The notes below the pieces were generated by a model. That model ran no database searches. It saw only the letters and a list, made by a program, of their open reading frames with translations, and was not told the origin of the DNA. Positions 19,043 to 41,296 of a stretch of 44,497 bases of DNA are shown piece by piece. The translations under genes and the position numbers were made by a program. The stretch spans positions 1 through 44,497 of the forward strand of contig CAKZQO010000239.1 in assembly GCA_937140905.1 (NCBI GenBank). The letters are read 5' to 3'. This stretch comes from an uncultured Spirochaeta sp. Lineage in GTDB: Bacteria > Spirochaetota > Spirochaetia > DTKZ01. Every line of letters starts with the position of its first letter. Positions within the stretch are counted from its first letter, which is position 1.

Positions 19043-19879
19043 CTATCGATCCTGTACGATTCGAATGGGAAGAGGTTCGGTAACTGAACCCGTATAGAGA
19101 GTTCTGTGGGGGAAGGGAATTTCGATGTGTTCCCGGTCGAATCTCTCCTTGATTTCCTGCAGGAGGGAGTTCTTCAGGTTCACGAAATCCTGCTTCTGAA
19201 ACCATACGCCCAATAGTACATTGATCCCCGATTCGCCGAACCCCTGCACGATCCACAGGGGTTCCGGTTCTCTCAACGCATAGGGATTGACTTCCACGAC
19301 TTCCATCAGCAGCTTTCGTACTCGTTCCAGATCTTCCTTGTAGGCTATCTGGAAACTGATATCCATCCGCCGAATAGGGAAGCGGGTAATATTTGTCACT
19401 TCTGTATTCAATACCATCTGGTTGGGAATTCGAATGAAGAGGTTATCGAAAGTGCGAATCTTGATGGACATAAGATCGATAGAGCTTACGATACCTGTTT
19501 TATCACCCACTTTGATCACGTCTCCCACTTCGAAAGGGCGTTCGGAAAGGAGAAAAATACCGCTAATCATATTGGACACGCTCGTCTGGGAGGCGAATCC
19601 AATGGCTACTCCAATGATTCCTGCCGCACCTAATAGGGTAGATACGTCCAAACCTACCTGGCGAAGCAGGGTAATTACTAGAACTGTGGAAGCAATGTAC
19701 AGGAGGACATTCCGCACAATCAGCTTGCTATGCTCGGAAAGGGGTTTTAAAAAAGTCTTTGCACTCAAATACAGGAGGAATCGTATGATTACTACTCCAA
19801 CAAGAAGGGTAATCCCTACGTTTAATCCTTTTTGAAATACTTCCGAAGGAATATATTTCAGCCAATCGAGGATTTTCAT
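19043..19879 (-). CDS. Small-conductance mechanosensitive channel, MscS family
   Basis: 278 residues, typical of MscS. Three hydrophobic segments at ~20-42, ~57-75 and ~80-105; the pore helix TM3 has the glycine/alanine-rich GAAGIIGVAIGFASQTSVSNMISG stretch that follows LSTLL-type sequence, then the beta-domain with FEVGDVIKVGDKTGIVSSIDL and the IPNQMV loop, and an alpha/beta C-terminal domain ending with PIRIVQDR. It opens on membrane tension to release solutes during osmotic downshock. It begins 9 bases after the DUF432-like gene and so is the last gene of the flcA-DUF432-mscS operon, whose only evident promoter is sigma-28 type. Confidence 0.93.
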   Translation of the reverse strand: MKILDWLKYIPSEVFQKGLNVGITLLVGVVIIRFLLYLSAKTFLKPLSEHSKLIVRNVLLYIASTVLVITLLRQVGLDVSTLLGAAGIIGVAIGFASQTSVSNMISGIFLLSERPFEVGDVIKVGDKTGIVSSIDLMSIKIRTFDNLFIRIPNQMVLNTEVTNITRFPIRRMDISFQIAYKEDLERVRKLLMEVVEVNPYALREPEPLWIVQGFGESGINVLLGVWFQKQDFVNLKNSLLQEIKERFDREHIEIPFPHRTLYTGSVTEPLPIRIVQDR

Positions 19880-19888
19880 CGTTTGCTC

Positions 19889-20737
19889 CTAGAAACCCGT
19901 TATGATCTTCAACAGACTGAAGGTACGTTTGAAATACCAAATATCGGAGACTTGTCTAGGGGATGCCAAAAGTCTAACCTTTGGTTCGAAGGATGGCGGA
20001 TGTTTCGAGGGTTCTACTACCGTTTCTTGTTCAGCACCTTTGAAGATCACCTCACTCGCATTGGTCCAGATCCTACTTTCTCCGCCATACAGACTTAACA
20101 CTTCCGTGTGGAGACAAATCTTGTCGAAAGGAAGTTCTATAGCGGACTCGTTTCGGATGCGAAGGGGACAAATGGCAAAGAGGGGATGTTCGGGGAGGGA
20201 ATGAAAATCGGTAAAAAGCCGGGTCTCTGTGGCATAACAAAGTTCCCCAGATACCGGATCGCCGAACCAGGTACTCTTCATCCGAAAGATGGGCATTTCG
20301 AATAGAAGTTTAGGAGTTACTTTTCTTCCTATGGGACCTACCATGAACCTCAACCATAACGGGAAGAAAATGAAGAACTGTGCGGTTTCTCCCGGTAGTA
20401 TCACAAGGAGACGATCGGGTTTTACCACCAGAGGCCGATCGGGTATTGCTGGCGTAGGATAGATACAGGGGGCATTCCGGACGAGGTAATGCTTCCACTC
20501 GGTCGTGATCGGTTTTTGCTCTTTCGATATGGACTCGATCCTGAAAATCGGATCGGAATTCCCCATGGGAACAGATTTATCTCGATATTCGGTGTGCACG
20601 TGCCATTCAATATCGTACCGTTCCACCCAAACATCGAGATCCCCTAGGGAGAAGCGAACACAGATCCCTGATTCCAATGGATACGGATTCCAGATAGCCA
20701 GTTTCTCGGAAAAAGAAACAGATTCCATGTTTTTCAT
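19889..20737 (-). CDS. DUF432-like protein, function unknown
   Basis: 282 residues with no signal peptide or membrane helix. The middle contains a hydrophobic beta-rich block (VKPDRLLVILPGETAQFFIFFPLWLRFMVG) followed by GELCYATETRLFTDF and a domain with ICPLRIRNESAIELPFDKICLHTEVLSLY. This arrangement resembles the DUF432 family, which from memory is often encoded next to MscS channels, as here; the family assignment is tentative. It lies 6 bases after the flcA-like gene and 9 bases before mscS, so the three are cotranscribed. An accessory or regulatory role for the channel is an inference from position only. Confidence 0.55.
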   Translation of the reverse strand: MKNMESVSFSEKLAIWNPYPLESGICVRFSLGDLDVWVERYDIEWHVHTEYRDKSVPMGNSDPIFRIESISKEQKPITTEWKHYLVRNAPCIYPTPAIPDRPLVVKPDRLLVILPGETAQFFIFFPLWLRFMVGPIGRKVTPKLLFEMPIFRMKSTWFGDPVSGELCYATETRLFTDFHSLPEHPLFAICPLRIRNESAIELPFDKICLHTEVLSLYGGESRIWTNASEVIFKGAEQETVVEPSKHPPSFEPKVRLLASPRQVSDIWYFKRTFSLLKIITGF

Positions 20738-20743
20738 ATCGGC

Positions 20744-23700
20744 TTAGAATTCTTGATTCCGAAGATCTATTGGAATGGAAGTGTAGACCTGCAGATCGTA
20801 CGGCAAGGAGGGGTTCAAGATCTTACGCATATTCAAATAGGCAAGATTCTTGGTTTCTCCCCTAACCTTTGTTTCCTGATCTCGAGAATAGTTCTCGTAT
20901 AGCTCTACGGCATCGGTAAGGAAAACGAGGGCCTCCGAATTCAAGTTAGGCCTTCGGGTACGATCGGAAAGCCGTTTCAACGTTACCCCTAAATTGTTGT
21001 AGGTTTTCATTAATTTCAACACTAACGCTCGATCCTCTGGTTTGATGTGGGGTTCCAGGAATCGAACCTTACCTCGATCCGTCGTCAATTTTTCTACTAA
21101 ATAGCGGTAGTAGCCAGAGGCGGCCGCATAATCGTTTCGTTGATACAGCGCAGTAGCCAAGGCGAATAGAACGTTCCGGTCTTCAGGAAATTTCGATTCA
21201 GTTTTTAGAAATTCGAAGATGGCCTGTTCATAGTTGCCAAAGAAATACTGGATGTACCCTTTTCGGAAGGACACCTCAGGGTCCTGCACGAAGGAGGCTT
21301 CCGCTTTCGTATATAGAGCCAACGCTTCCTGAAATCTTTGCCCCTCGTAGTAGTTCAGGTTCCCCAACCCCACATAGAGAAGTCCTAGCGTTGGATTCGG
21401 CTTCAACAGGCGAGTGGATAACGCTTCTTCGTATCGTCGGATACCTTCCTGATAGGATCGTTCCGCTTCCAGCACTTCCCGTCGTTCCAACCGATAATCC
21501 CCATCCCTCCTGTAGGTATCGATCAGCTTCCATACTTCCTTGCGGGTAAGAGCTTGTTGTTTCTCCTTTTCTTGATAGAGACTCAAGGTCCGATCCAGTG
21601 CAATTCGTTCATCCCGTGCTTTCCCCGTAGTTCGGAAGAGCCGAGCGAACTGATAGTGCACCTCAGCAACATTTGGATTTGCCTTCATGGCCCGTGTCAG
21701 GATGGGTTGCACATCCTCAGTCTTGCCTTTGTCGATAAGGTACCCTGCCAACATGGCGTACCGTTCGACATCTATTTCCAATTTTTCCTTCTTTTCGAAG
21801 TATTCCTTCAATCGATTCACTTCCGCGAACTCATCTGTCAGAATAAAGAGTTCAAGAAACCGAAAGAGGATGGTATCCTTGTCCCCGTATCGCTGTAAAA
21901 GAGTTCCATAGGTTTTTCTAGCTTCCTGGTATTTTTGCGGTTCCACATCCGCCCATCGAATGTAGTTGTCCCCCAAAGCGAGGAGCCCCTGCCAATGGTA
22001 CAAATCCACATTCAAGAGTTTTTTTAGGATCTTTTCCGCTTTCTCATAGTTTTCCAACACCCGGGATTCCAGATCCCCATAAGCGAGAACTCCCCGTTCG
22101 AAATAGGAGTCTTTCTTGCGTTCCGTCCAGATCTTTGTTCGAGGATGGATATAATCAGCGTAGTGAGCAAGGAGTTCTTCATACTTAGCTTGGGCAAGAG
22201 CGTACTGTTTCTTCCTCACGAAAAGATCCGCATACCGAAAGTACCATTCCTTGTCGTCCCAAATACGATAGGCTCGATCGAAGTAGCCGTTCCCTTCCCG
22301 ATATCGATCCGCTTCAATCAACGCATACCCTTGGCGAAAGAGGGATCGAGCATAGAGGGGTCTGTAAATATAAAGATACGCGCCATAGAATAGAACACCT
22401 GTAACGAACGCAGAAGCAAGAGCCAACCTGAGGATGGGAAGAACCTTTTCCCGGAGGATATATGATAGGGTTTCTTTTTCCGCTTCGTACGCATATCCCG
22501 TTCGTTTTTCGTACCCCTTGGGAACTTTTAACGGACGACCCAAAAGCTTCCCTGTGAAGGTAGCGATGGTGGATAAGCTTTCACCAGCCAAGATGTATCG
22601 GATCAACTTGATTTGGTCTTCATCGGAAGCTTTGTTTCCACCTACTACCTCCTCGATGGCTCGTCTAAGATTCAACGGGAGGTCGGAAAGGGCTTTCTTG
22701 AATCGTTCGAACTCCTCTTCCGAAAGCGAGAACTCCTCCTCTTCCGCAACCGCCGCAATGACCTCTGCAGCGCCGGCAGGGATATTGATGGCAGGCTCTT
22801 CTTCCTTTGCTTCTTCTGTTTCCAGTATGCCAAACTCTGCTCCAAAATCTCCTAAGCTAAACTCTTCACCGCCCAGTTCATCCACGGAGATTTCTTCCAA
22901 TTCCCCTTCTTCTTTTTCGCCTCCTTCCTCTATCGGGGTTGCCTTGGAAGGAAGAGGCTGGGCAGAAGGTTCTGCTTCAGTCTTTCCCTCTTCAAAGAAG
23001 AAACCCTCTTCGATCGAGGGCGTTTCCTCGATCTCTTCCTTGGGAGCGGCACCCTCCTCGAACGAGGGAATTTCCTCTATCTCTTCCTTAGGAGCTGTTT
23101 CCTCCTCGAATAGGTGTTCCGCCTGAATCTCCTCCTTTTCGGGAGCGCTTTTTTCTTCCAAGGTGAACTGTTCTTCTATACTTTCCATTCCTTCTGGAAA
23201 AGAAAACTCTTCCAATCCCTCTTCTTCAGGTTTGGGCAACCCTTCTTCTTGTGCAGGTGTTTCCTCTTCCCCTAAAGGCAACTCCGGCATCTCGAACTCT
23301 TCTAAGGTAGGTTCCTGTTCTTTGCCCCCTTCTTCTAGGCCCTCTTCCTCAAAACGGAGTTCCGAAGGTGTCGAAACCACTTCTTCAATTGGTGAAGGGG
23401 GTGCCTCTTGGGAGGGAACTTCTTCCTCCGATGGAAGCCCTTCTTCGAATTCGAACAGAGACTCTTCTTTCTCTACGGGTTGGGAAAGGGAAGCGCCTTC
23501 ACTTTCAAAAGGGGTTATTTCCTCTTGTGGCAATTGATCTAAGGGCAGTTCTTCAGGCGTTTCTTCTGCGGTAGGTCCCGCAGTCGATTCCTCTAATGGG
23601 ATCCCTTCGAACAATTCCGCCAAATCAGCAGATAGCCCTTCTTCCGGTCTGGGAACCGGTTCGAAGGTTTCTCCCCTTTCGGTCAACACTTCCGGCTCAT

Positions 23701-23755
23701 GTCCCGTTTCATAGAGTTTTGAAGCGAATTGTTCGATATCTTCTACTCGAGGCAT
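20744..23755 (-). CDS. flcA: TPR protein resembling the periplasmic flagellar collar protein FlcA
   Basis: 1003 residues in three parts: a highly acidic, Glu/Pro-rich low-complexity N-terminal region (~35-350), a conserved helical segment plus one membrane helix (~439-463, LPILRLALASAFVTGVLFYGAYLYIY), then a long array of TPR helices (~467-970) that would lie in the periplasm. This architecture matches the spirochaetal collar protein FlcA (BB0326 of Borrelia), which organises the stator and collar of the periplasmic flagellar motor. The assignment is from architecture and from a sigma-28-type promoter (TAAA-N15-GCCGAAAA) 18 bases upstream. AAAGGG precedes the ATG at 23755. First gene of an operon with the DUF432-like gene and mscS. 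Confidence 0.65.
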   Translation of the reverse strand: MPRVEDIEQFASKLYETGHEPEVLTERGETFEPVPRPEEGLSADLAELFEGIPLEESTAGPTAEETPEELPLDQLPQEEITPFESEGASLSQPVEKEESLFEFEEGLPSEEEVPSQEAPPSPIEEVVSTPSELRFEEEGLEEGGKEQEPTLEEFEMPELPLGEEETPAQEEGLPKPEEEGLEEFSFPEGMESIEEQFTLEEKSAPEKEEIQAEHLFEEETAPKEEIEEIPSFEEGAAPKEEIEETPSIEEGFFFEEGKTEAEPSAQPLPSKATPIEEGGEKEEGELEEISVDELGGEEFSLGDFGAEFGILETEEAKEEEPAINIPAGAAEVIAAVAEEEEFSLSEEEFERFKKALSDLPLNLRRAIEEVVGGNKASDEDQIKLIRYILAGESLSTIATFTGKLLGRPLKVPKGYEKRTGYAYEAEKETLSYILREKVLPILRLALASAFVTGVLFYGAYLYIYRPLYARSLFRQGYALIEADRYREGNGYFDRAYRIWDDKEWYFRYADLFVRKKQYALAQAKYEELLAHYADYIHPRTKIWTERKKDSYFERGVLAYGDLESRVLENYEKAEKILKKLLNVDLYHWQGLLALGDNYIRWADVEPQKYQEARKTYGTLLQRYGDKDTILFRFLELFILTDEFAEVNRLKEYFEKKEKLEIDVERYAMLAGYLIDKGKTEDVQPILTRAMKANPNVAEVHYQFARLFRTTGKARDERIALDRTLSLYQEKEKQQALTRKEVWKLIDTYRRDGDYRLERREVLEAERSYQEGIRRYEEALSTRLLKPNPTLGLLYVGLGNLNYYEGQRFQEALALYTKAEASFVQDPEVSFRKGYIQYFFGNYEQAIFEFLKTESKFPEDRNVLFALATALYQRNDYAAASGYYRYLVEKLTTDRGKVRFLEPHIKPEDRALVLKLMKTYNNLGVTLKRLSDRTRRPNLNSEALVFLTDAVELYENYSRDQETKVRGETKNLAYLNMRKILNPSLPYDLQVYTSIPIDLRNQEF
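23000..23095 (-). repeat. Two-copy 48-base tandem repeat in the acidic region of the flcA-like gene
   Basis: Residues ~221-236 and ~237-252 repeat the unit APKEEIEE(I/T)PS(F/I)EEG(A/F). The DNA copies are nearly identical, so the acidic linker probably changes length by slippage or unequal recombination. Confidence 0.75.
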
Positions 23756-23772
23756 TTGAACCCTTTACGTCA

Positions 23773-23799
23773 TTTTCGGCTATTGCTAAAGATGCTTTA
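23773..23799 (-). promoter_or_regulatory. Sigma-28 (FliA) promoter of the flcA-DUF432-mscS operon
   Basis: On the minus strand TAAA (23799-23796), exactly 15 bases, then GCCGAAAA (23780-23773). The sigma-28 consensus is TAAA-N15-GCCGATAA, so there is one mismatch. The predicted start leaves a ~12-base leader with AAAGGG before the ATG at 23755. Confidence 0.75.
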
Positions 23800-23854
23800 C
23801 CTGTACATCCTTTCTTCCGAAATTCTATGGTAATAGGATATCAGGAAACAAACA

Positions 23855-24559
23855 ATGCGCAAGTACTCTCTACTCATAATCCTACTTTCAATCATCACCG
23901 CTCTTGCAGCTGCGTCAGATTCGGAGGGGGATCTTCATATAAAAGTGATGCGAACCTCGAAAGCGGCCCCTCCCCAGATTCACAATGGACATGTTTTTTT
24001 CACTTTCCAAACCAAAACCCCAGTTCGGTATGTGGGGATCGCCTTCCTCCATGAACAGTTCCGAAAAGTCCATCTATTCCAACGGAATGATAAAGGAGTG
24101 CTATTCTTTGCCTACCCAATTCCGGAAGGCATGACGCACCTCGATTACCGCCTTATCGTGGATGGTCTATGGACCACGGATCCTCTGAATCCGTATACGT
24201 ATTTAGATTCCCAGGGTATCTCCCTATCCAGGTTCGAGTTTCCCAAAGAGCAGCTAATGATAACCTCCCGAAGCCCCATTATTAGAGAAGAGGAACAACA
24301 AGTAGTATTCGTGTTTCAAGCGGAACCAGGAAAGGATATCTATCTTACCGGATCCTTTGCCCGATGGGATCCGTATCTCTACCGGATGGAAGAGGTCCGG
24401 CCAGGGCTGTATACCCTAACCCTCCGTTTACTTCCGGGTACCCACTACTACGCGTTCTATAAGGACGGTAAACGTATACGCGATCCATTAAACAAGGAAT
24501 GGAGAAGAAGCAAAGAGGGACAGGAAGCTTCTGTTCTGATCGTTCCTTCCCGATCCTAA
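23855..24559 (+). CDS. Secreted protein with glycogen-binding (AMPK/CBM48-like) domains
   Basis: 234 residues. A signal peptide (MRKYSLLIILLSIITALAAA) is followed by two beta-sandwich modules: the first (~30-130) has VRYVGIAFLHEQFRKVHLFQRNDKGVLFFAYPIPEGMTHLDYRLIVDGLWTTDPLNP, the second (~150-230) has KDIYLTGSFARWDPYLYRMEEVRPGLYTLTLRLLPGTHYYAFYKDGKRIRDP. Both show the F-x-G-x-F-x-W-D ... Y-x-Y-x-V-D-G ... D-P pattern of isoamylase-N/AMPK glycogen-binding folds. Being exported, it may bind surface or periplasmic glycans, or use the fold structurally. AGGAAAC lies ~9 bases before the ATG. It is divergent from flcA with a 99-base gap. Confidence 0.7.
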   Translation: MRKYSLLIILLSIITALAAASDSEGDLHIKVMRTSKAAPPQIHNGHVFFTFQTKTPVRYVGIAFLHEQFRKVHLFQRNDKGVLFFAYPIPEGMTHLDYRLIVDGLWTTDPLNPYTYLDSQGISLSRFEFPKEQLMITSRSPIIREEEQQVVFVFQAEPGKDIYLTGSFARWDPYLYRMEEVRPGLYTLTLRLLPGTHYYAFYKDGKRIRDPLNKEWRRSKEGQEASVLIVPSRS

Positions 24560-40256: not shown

Positions 40257-40958
40257 ATCGATACTGTAGAAGTCGTGGGAACCCTATACATTATAGCTAC
40301 CCCTTTAGGGAACCTTCAGGATATTACTTACCGGGCTATCGAGACTCTCAGGCAGGTGGACGTAGTAGCTTGTGAGGATACCAGGCGAAGTATTAAACTC
40401 CTGAACGCGTACAATATCAAGAAACCTCTCATAAGCTGTCATGGACATAACGAAACAAAAAGCGCTCTTCGGATACGGGAACTCCTTTCAGAAGGGAAGG
40501 ATGTCGCTTATGTCAGTGATGCGGGCACTCCCGGTTTGAGTGATCCGGGGGCTAAATTAGTCCGAATGGCTCGGGAAGCAGGTTTCTCGGTTATTCCCAT
40601 ACCTGGCCCTTCCGCCTTTTCTACCCTTTTAAGTGTGGCGGGATTACAAGAAACCTCCGTCCATTTTGAAGGGTTTTTAGGAATCAAGCAGGGGAAACGA
40701 CGCTCGAGACTCAAAGAATTGTTGGATAGAAATGAACCCTTCGTTATCTATGAGTCGGTTCATCGAATTGAAAAACTTCTCCTGGAACTGAAAGACCTTG
40801 CTCCCGAGCGAAGGGTATTCATTGGGAGAGAGATGACAAAGGCATTCGAAGAATACTTGGAAGGACCTGCCGTGACACTCCTTGCTCGAGTACAGAATCA
40901 CCCAGATCGGAAAAAAGGTGAGTATACTGTACTTGTCTATAGCGGGAAAAAGAGTTAA
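40257..40958 (+). CDS. rsmI: 16S rRNA (cytidine-1402-2'-O)-methyltransferase
   Basis: About 233 residues. The tetrapyrrole-methylase-like fold is plain: GTLYIIATPLGNLQDIT, CEDTRRS, VSDAGTPGLSDPG, PIPGPSAFSTLL and ERRVFIGREMTKAFEE are RsmI signatures. It methylates C1402 in the 30S decoding centre. The start is uncertain. An AGGAGGT Shine-Dalgarno (40243-40249) is followed 7 bases later by ATC (40257), with no ATG, GTG or TTG at the right distance in frame; the alternatives are the TTG at 40239 that overlaps the Shine-Dalgarno and the GTG at 40275. I annotate from the ATC with low confidence in that point. The stop at 40958 overlaps the -35 box of the flgM promoter. Confidence 0.93.
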   Translation: MDTVEVVGTLYIIATPLGNLQDITYRAIETLRQVDVVACEDTRRSIKLLNAYNIKKPLISCHGHNETKSALRIRELLSEGKDVAYVSDAGTPGLSDPGAKLVRMAREAGFSVIPIPGPSAFSTLLSVAGLQETSVHFEGFLGIKQGKRRSRLKELLDRNEPFVIYESVHRIEKLLLELKDLAPERRVFIGREMTKAFEEYLEGPAVTLLARVQNHPDRKKGEYTVLVYSGKKS

Positions 40959-40982
40959 AATTGAACCTAGCAATGCCGATAC
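40956..40982 (+). promoter_or_regulatory. Sigma-28 (FliA) promoter of flgM
   Basis: TAAA (40956-40959, formed in part by the rsmI stop codon), exactly 15 bases, then GCCGATAC (40975-40982), one mismatch from TAAA-N15-GCCGATAA. The flgM ATG is 29 bases further on. Confidence 0.85.
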
Positions 40983-41011: not shown

Positions 41012-41296
41012 ATGACCATCGAAAGACTTGGACCTACAGGACCTATTTCGAATTACAATAAGACGGGAAAGGTATCTAAATCCGATTCCATTCTAGGCAA
41101 AGATTCCATCGATGTGTCGGAAGAGGCAAAACAGAAAGCCGAGGTATTCAAAGCCCTCGAAAGCCTCCGTTCTGTTCCGGATATTCGAGAAGACCGGGTA
41201 GCAGAGGTAAAGAAAAAGCTGGAAGACCCCAATTACATCAATGAAAAAGTAATCGAATCTGTTGCAGAACGCATCATGGATCTATTCAAAATTTAA
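41012..41296 (+). CDS. flgM: Anti-sigma-28 factor FlgM
   Basis: 94 residues, the usual FlgM size. The N-terminal half is polar and probably disordered (MTIERLGPTGPISNYN...); the C-terminal half contains the sigma-28-binding helices (DSIDVSEEAKQKAEVFKALESLRSVPDIREDRVAEVKKKLEDPNYI). FlgM holds sigma-28 inactive until the flagellar hook is built and is then exported. The upstream sigma-28 promoter means sigma-28 makes its own inhibitor. A terminator follows 25 bases after the stop. Confidence 0.92.
   Translation: MTIERLGPTGPISNYNKTGKVSKSDSILGKDSIDVSEEAKQKAEVFKALESLRSVPDIREDRVAEVKKKLEDPNYINEKVIESVAERIMDLFKI

Follow-up and report, generated by a model that had tools for sequence, protein, structure and literature searches.

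In the stretch of DNA analysed here (44,497 nucleotides, called the window below), the gene of the flagellar collar protein FlcA is directly preceded by a site that is very probably a functional promoter of sigma-28 (FliA), which would transcribe flcA and, probably, the next two genes as well. FlcA and sigma-28 promoters are both already known, and the open-licence papers searched contained no report of flcA being under sigma-28 control. Studies of the collar have used Borrelia, a lineage that lost sigma-28 (PMC11607428). The site is convincing because of its context (its rank in a sigma-28 matrix, its conservation and its absence in the FliA-less Borrelia) and not because of its letters. As a conserved site, it would make flcA a member of the sigma-28 regulon in most of the Spirochaetia examined, with the prediction that stator anchoring is switched on together with the filament. 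The parts of the site and the gene behind it are:

23796-23799, minus strand: -35 box TAAA of the candidate flcA sigma-28 promoter (from sequence; identical in four congeners)
23773-23780, minus strand: -10 box GCCGAAAA of the same promoter (from sequence; identical in four congeners, CCGA[ACT]A in orthologs)
23761-23766, minus strand: putative Shine-Dalgarno AAAGGG in the short leader, 5 bases before the ATG (from sequence)
20744-23755, minus strand: flcA, 1003-residue flagellar collar protein with an acidic disordered part, one membrane segment and a TPR solenoid (NCBIfam models; reciprocal best match with BB0326; structural model)

Read on the minus strand from 23799 to 23773, the whole site is TAAAGCATCTTTAGCAATAGCCGAAAA, composed of TAAA, the spacer GCATCTTTAGCAATA (N15) and GCCGAAAA. 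Compared with the sigma-28 (FliA) consensus, TAAA-N15-GCCGATAA, it has a spacer of 15 and a single mismatch, base 6 of the -10 box being A where the consensus has T. An earlier note on this DNA had described the TAAA-N15 site with its strand, spacing, coordinates and one mismatch to the FliA consensus, and had seen it at a proper distance from the start codon with a Shine-Dalgarno sequence in a short leader; all of this was confirmed from the sequence, the end of the site lying 17 nt from the ATG (23755) and AAAGGG at 23766-23761. The start codon itself, as judged from the reading frame, is not in doubt, because the frame closes just upstream and the FlcA N-terminal model aligns from residue 1. 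If transcription starts 5-7 nt past the -10 box, the flcA leader would be about 11-13 nt long and would begin almost at the Shine-Dalgarno sequence. Leaders of 12-14 nt have been mapped in spirochetes, in front of Leptospira flgB (PMC5243855) and Treponema denticola TDE1716 (PMC9481697). In some other families (loci L035, L053, L056 and L128) the flcA -10 element lies just 6-7 nt before the ATG, which would mean a leaderless message.

The 1003-residue protein, which had been called flcA-like for its acidic, membrane-segment and TPR architecture, is FlcA according to its sequence matches. It exceeds the cut-offs of both NCBIfam models, FlcA_CTERM (NF047371; 614 bits, cut-off 300) and FlcA_NTERM (NF047372; 39.6 bits, cut-off 28), and it forms a reciprocal best match with Borreliella BB0326 (E=2e-50 in the pairwise comparison), the Borreliella protein matching flcA alone in this genome. 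That the Borreliella gene is BB0326 was established with published cloning primers (PMC8609358), which match at 24/24 and 21/21 bases in several species; in two of these species they lie at codons 360 and 931. In the predicted model, an alpha-solenoid accompanies a disordered acidic region (about residues 52-341) and a long helix (430-481) in which the membrane segment lies; TPR families were matched in the sequence, and the predicted topology places a periplasmic TPR domain after the membrane segment. Among the 60 genomes of the class, the 47 that have flagellin, and they alone, carry a homolog; the 13 lacking flagellin do not have one. Three genomes (G017, G019 and G044) carry FliA and FlhA with neither flagellin nor an FlcA homolog, and their flagellar systems are possibly decayed or altered. 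In B. burgdorferi, FlcA makes up the outer, turbine-like region of the collar and touches the stator, and its collar location and its need in stator assembly are known for Borrelia (PMC8609358, PMC11750108); by analogy, the same location and stator role would be expected of FlcA in this organism.

The following genes, and a second sigma-28 site used as positive control, also belong to the proposed circuit:

19889-20737, minus strand: unclassified 282-aa gene, 6 nt behind flcA (gap size)
19043-19879, minus strand: MscS-type channel, 9 nt past the 282-aa gene (Pfam MS_channel; gap size)
40956-40982, plus strand: sigma-28 site TAAA-N15-GCCGATAC before flgM, positive control (motif kept in 28/30 relatives)
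41012-41296, plus strand: flgM, anti-sigma-28 factor (Pfam FlgM, 39.2 bits, cut-off 25)

The genome also encodes FliA (G000:C184:11894-12571; 295 bits, cut-off 189.6). We infer that flcA is transcribed by FliA, with its start point, its late timing and the extent of its transcript as follows: FlgM would release FliA, FliA would direct RNA polymerase to the flcA site, and the polymerase would transcribe flcA, probably together with the 282-aa gene (whose homologs, among the loci compared, adjoin flcA in family f1 alone) and possibly with the MscS-type channel. FlcA would then be inserted in the inner membrane, its TPR domain would join the periplasmic flagellar collar, and the protein would build the outer, turbine-like collar part holding the stator units, being produced alongside other sigma-28 genes (flagellins, flgM). 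It is also conceivable, although we consider it unlikely, that the promoter is real and flcA has a constitutive start besides, sigma-28 merely boosting its expression. Such a mixed arrangement would agree with the division of the T. denticola filament genes between sigma-70 and sigma-28 (PMC9481697), and a stator scaffold might be required ahead of the filament; nonetheless, a scan of 23600-23980 revealed no sigma-70-like site, bearing in mind that such scans miss real promoters.

The assignment of the flcA site to sigma-28 is supported by a two-box matrix, trained on the upstream regions of flgM, flagellin and a second TPR gene across the class, flcA and its divergent neighbour being left out; the training set includes the flgM, flagellin and TPR sites of this genome but not its flcA site. 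The earlier note had proposed ranking the site with such a matrix against flagellin promoters. The flcA site scored 15.8, compared with 19.9 for flgM, 16.9 and 11.6 for the two flaB genes (on contigs C105 and C33, respectively), 16.2 for the TPR gene and 10.4 for the divergent CBM48 gene. Only 1 of 208 control upstream regions (0.5%) reached the flcA score, and the top two sites in the window, on both strands, were those of flgM and flcA. Across the class, the upstream regions of flcA orthologs scored higher than controls (p=1e-14, with independence assumed despite relatedness). With a matrix built from flgM alone the flcA site was moderate, 5.3% of controls scoring as high, since flgM has T at base 6; the addition of flagellin and the second TPR gene lowered this share to the 0.5% given above.

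The second TPR gene (L141:1135-4164; G000:C323:7637-10663, minus strand) encodes another exported TPR-like protein, of about 1000 residues. It is preceded by TACA-N15-GCCGATAA, with an element of the GCCGATAA type in many orthologs, and it is limited to flagellated relatives (38/47). The name FlcB was not adopted for it, because the protein has no NCBIfam or Pfam family match and no match in Borrelia-like genomes.

Conservation points in the same direction. Four congeners keep GTAAAGCATCT and GCCGAAAATGACGTAA, most of the intervening spacer being altered. More broadly, CCGA[ACT]A was found within 60 nt before the ATG in 30 of the 41 flcA orthologs with an intact start region, and was missing from the other 11, against 28 of 208 controls (Fisher p=4e-14). 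With one ortholog per family the element was present in 14/22, against 48/336 in a less strict control set used earlier (p=6e-7). These p-values treat related sequences as independent, which they are not; the controls contain regions near other flagellar genes, which biases the comparison in the opposite direction. It could be argued that the CCGAAA element is the site of another regulator or sigma factor and that TAAA is incidental, a reading that we hold to be very improbable. It finds some footing in base 6 of the -10 box, which across the class is T in 27/28 flgM sites and A in 23/33 flcA sites (23 A, 6 C, 4 T; A against T, p=2e-10; upstream regions L031-L137 and L091-L120), and in the flcA -35 box, weak or absent in many families outside the genus. 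On the other hand, TAAA stands at exactly N15 within the genus, and TAAA, TCAA, TGAA or TAAG is found at N15 in several distant orthologs; the matrix from known sigma-28 genes puts the flcA upstream regions far above controls; and the flagellin sites of the class also include CCGACA and CCGAAA. Furthermore, the element is missing from the lineage that lacks FliA: the Borrelia/Borreliella-lineage genomes G027 and G049 gave no above-cut-off match to FliA, and the flcA upstream regions of Borrelia and Borreliella, where the gene lies close behind another, carry no sigma-28-type element. The gene-specific base 6 may set promoter strength or order.

The frequency of the bare string has to be read separately from its frequency in promoter position. 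When the consensus string was searched in the genome (3.57 Mb), with the same pattern read backwards as control, no enrichment was seen at up to one mismatch (20 sites against 17) or at up to two (205 against 215). Four of the 20 one-mismatch sites unambiguously precede a correctly oriented gene, these being flgM, a flagellin, flcA and the flagella-linked TPR gene, a count that by itself gives little enrichment (binomial p about 0.1 when the promoter fraction is set generously). One further one-mismatch site, at G000:C151, was set aside; by eye, the surrounding DNA resembles coding sequence of the FlhB C-terminal type. A plasmid search returned nothing. Within the window, 0.004 sites would be expected at the control rate in the 60 nt before its approximately 30 genes and two were seen (flcA and flgM), a result with a probability of 9e-6 (about 30 genes assumed). 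The possibility raised earlier, that such sites occur at random frequency, is therefore borne out for the bare string genome-wide and not for sites in promoter position. That the flcA string is a chance match, one of some 20 expected in the genome, and that flcA uses a hard-to-recognise sigma-70 promoter, is the least probable reading of all: the reversed control and the 0.37 sites that shuffled windows yield anywhere at the flcA matrix score would allow it, but the site stands directly before the gene, is kept in congeners, shares in a class-wide enrichment and has no counterpart in the FliA-less lineage, and the scan of 23600-23980 offered no sigma-70-like replacement. The interpretation of the earlier note is supported, the protein being identified as FlcA, with the qualification that a lone one-mismatch site could not by itself lend independent support to a flagellar role, since its support derives from conservation.

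The flcA gene and its divergent neighbour are separated by an intergenic region of 99 bp, which carries a second candidate site:

23797-23823, plus strand: weaker candidate site for the divergent gene, TTAC-N15-TCCGAAAT (matrix 10.4, reached by 6.7% of controls; conserved in four congeners)
23855-24559, plus strand: divergent gene, encoding a membrane-anchored protein with two CBM48/E-set domains and linked to the flagellum by its occurrence (Pfam AMPK1_CBM; occurrence; structural model and fold search)

The model of the CBM48 protein (pLDDT 89.6) has a membrane helix at the N-terminus and a pair of CBM48/E-set domains, which in a fold search align singly with AMPK glycogen-binding domains (rmsd about 1.2-1.7); no named family was found for it in the NCBIfam libraries searched. 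The gene is present in 45/47 flagellated and 0/13 other genomes of the class (p=2e-11), and in 37 of the 43 genomes that can be judged it lies next to flcA in divergent orientation. Borrelia-like genomes retain it; in one of them, G027, it stands between oppF-like and enolase genes, which we take to be the position of BB0336; no mention of BB0336 was found in the open-licence papers searched. Upstream of the CBM48 gene, the CCGA core occurs in 31/37 regions against 48/208 controls, and the matrix scores exceed those of controls (p=2e-12). The function of its site in this genome appears less certain than that of the flcA site, because its matrix score is weak. The -35 box of this candidate overlaps that of flcA at 23797-23799, and the two promoters, sharing this DNA, may therefore compete for polymerase or exclude each other in this genus. 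We give about an even chance to the broader proposal that flcA and the CBM48 gene are an old flagellar pair on back-to-back sigma-28 promoters, and that the CBM48 protein is an unrecognised component of the periplasmic flagellum, perhaps a missing collar protein. The CBM48 protein is a concrete candidate for one of the collar components still missing according to the collar papers.

Among known systems, the mapped sigma-28 promoter of T. denticola flaB2, PflaB2 (-35 TTAA, -10 CCGATAA; PMC9481697), has -35 and -10 boxes like those of the flcA site. It differs in driving a flagellin gene from a start 124 bp from the ATG, whereas flcA is a collar gene with the short leader predicted above, and the flcA -10 box has A at base 6. 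Closer at hand, the flgM promoter of the same genome, TAAA-N15-GCCGATAC, is built like the flcA site; it outscores the latter (19.9 against 15.8), and its base 6 is T almost everywhere. As for the protein, FlcA resembles BB0326 of Borrelia burgdorferi in both curated domains and in how the acidic part, the membrane segment and the TPR domain are laid out, at an identity of about 25% over the aligned part. The two genes differ in their setting: Borreliella flcA lies close behind another gene with no sigma-28 site, whereas flcA here stands behind what appears to be its own sigma-28-type promoter.
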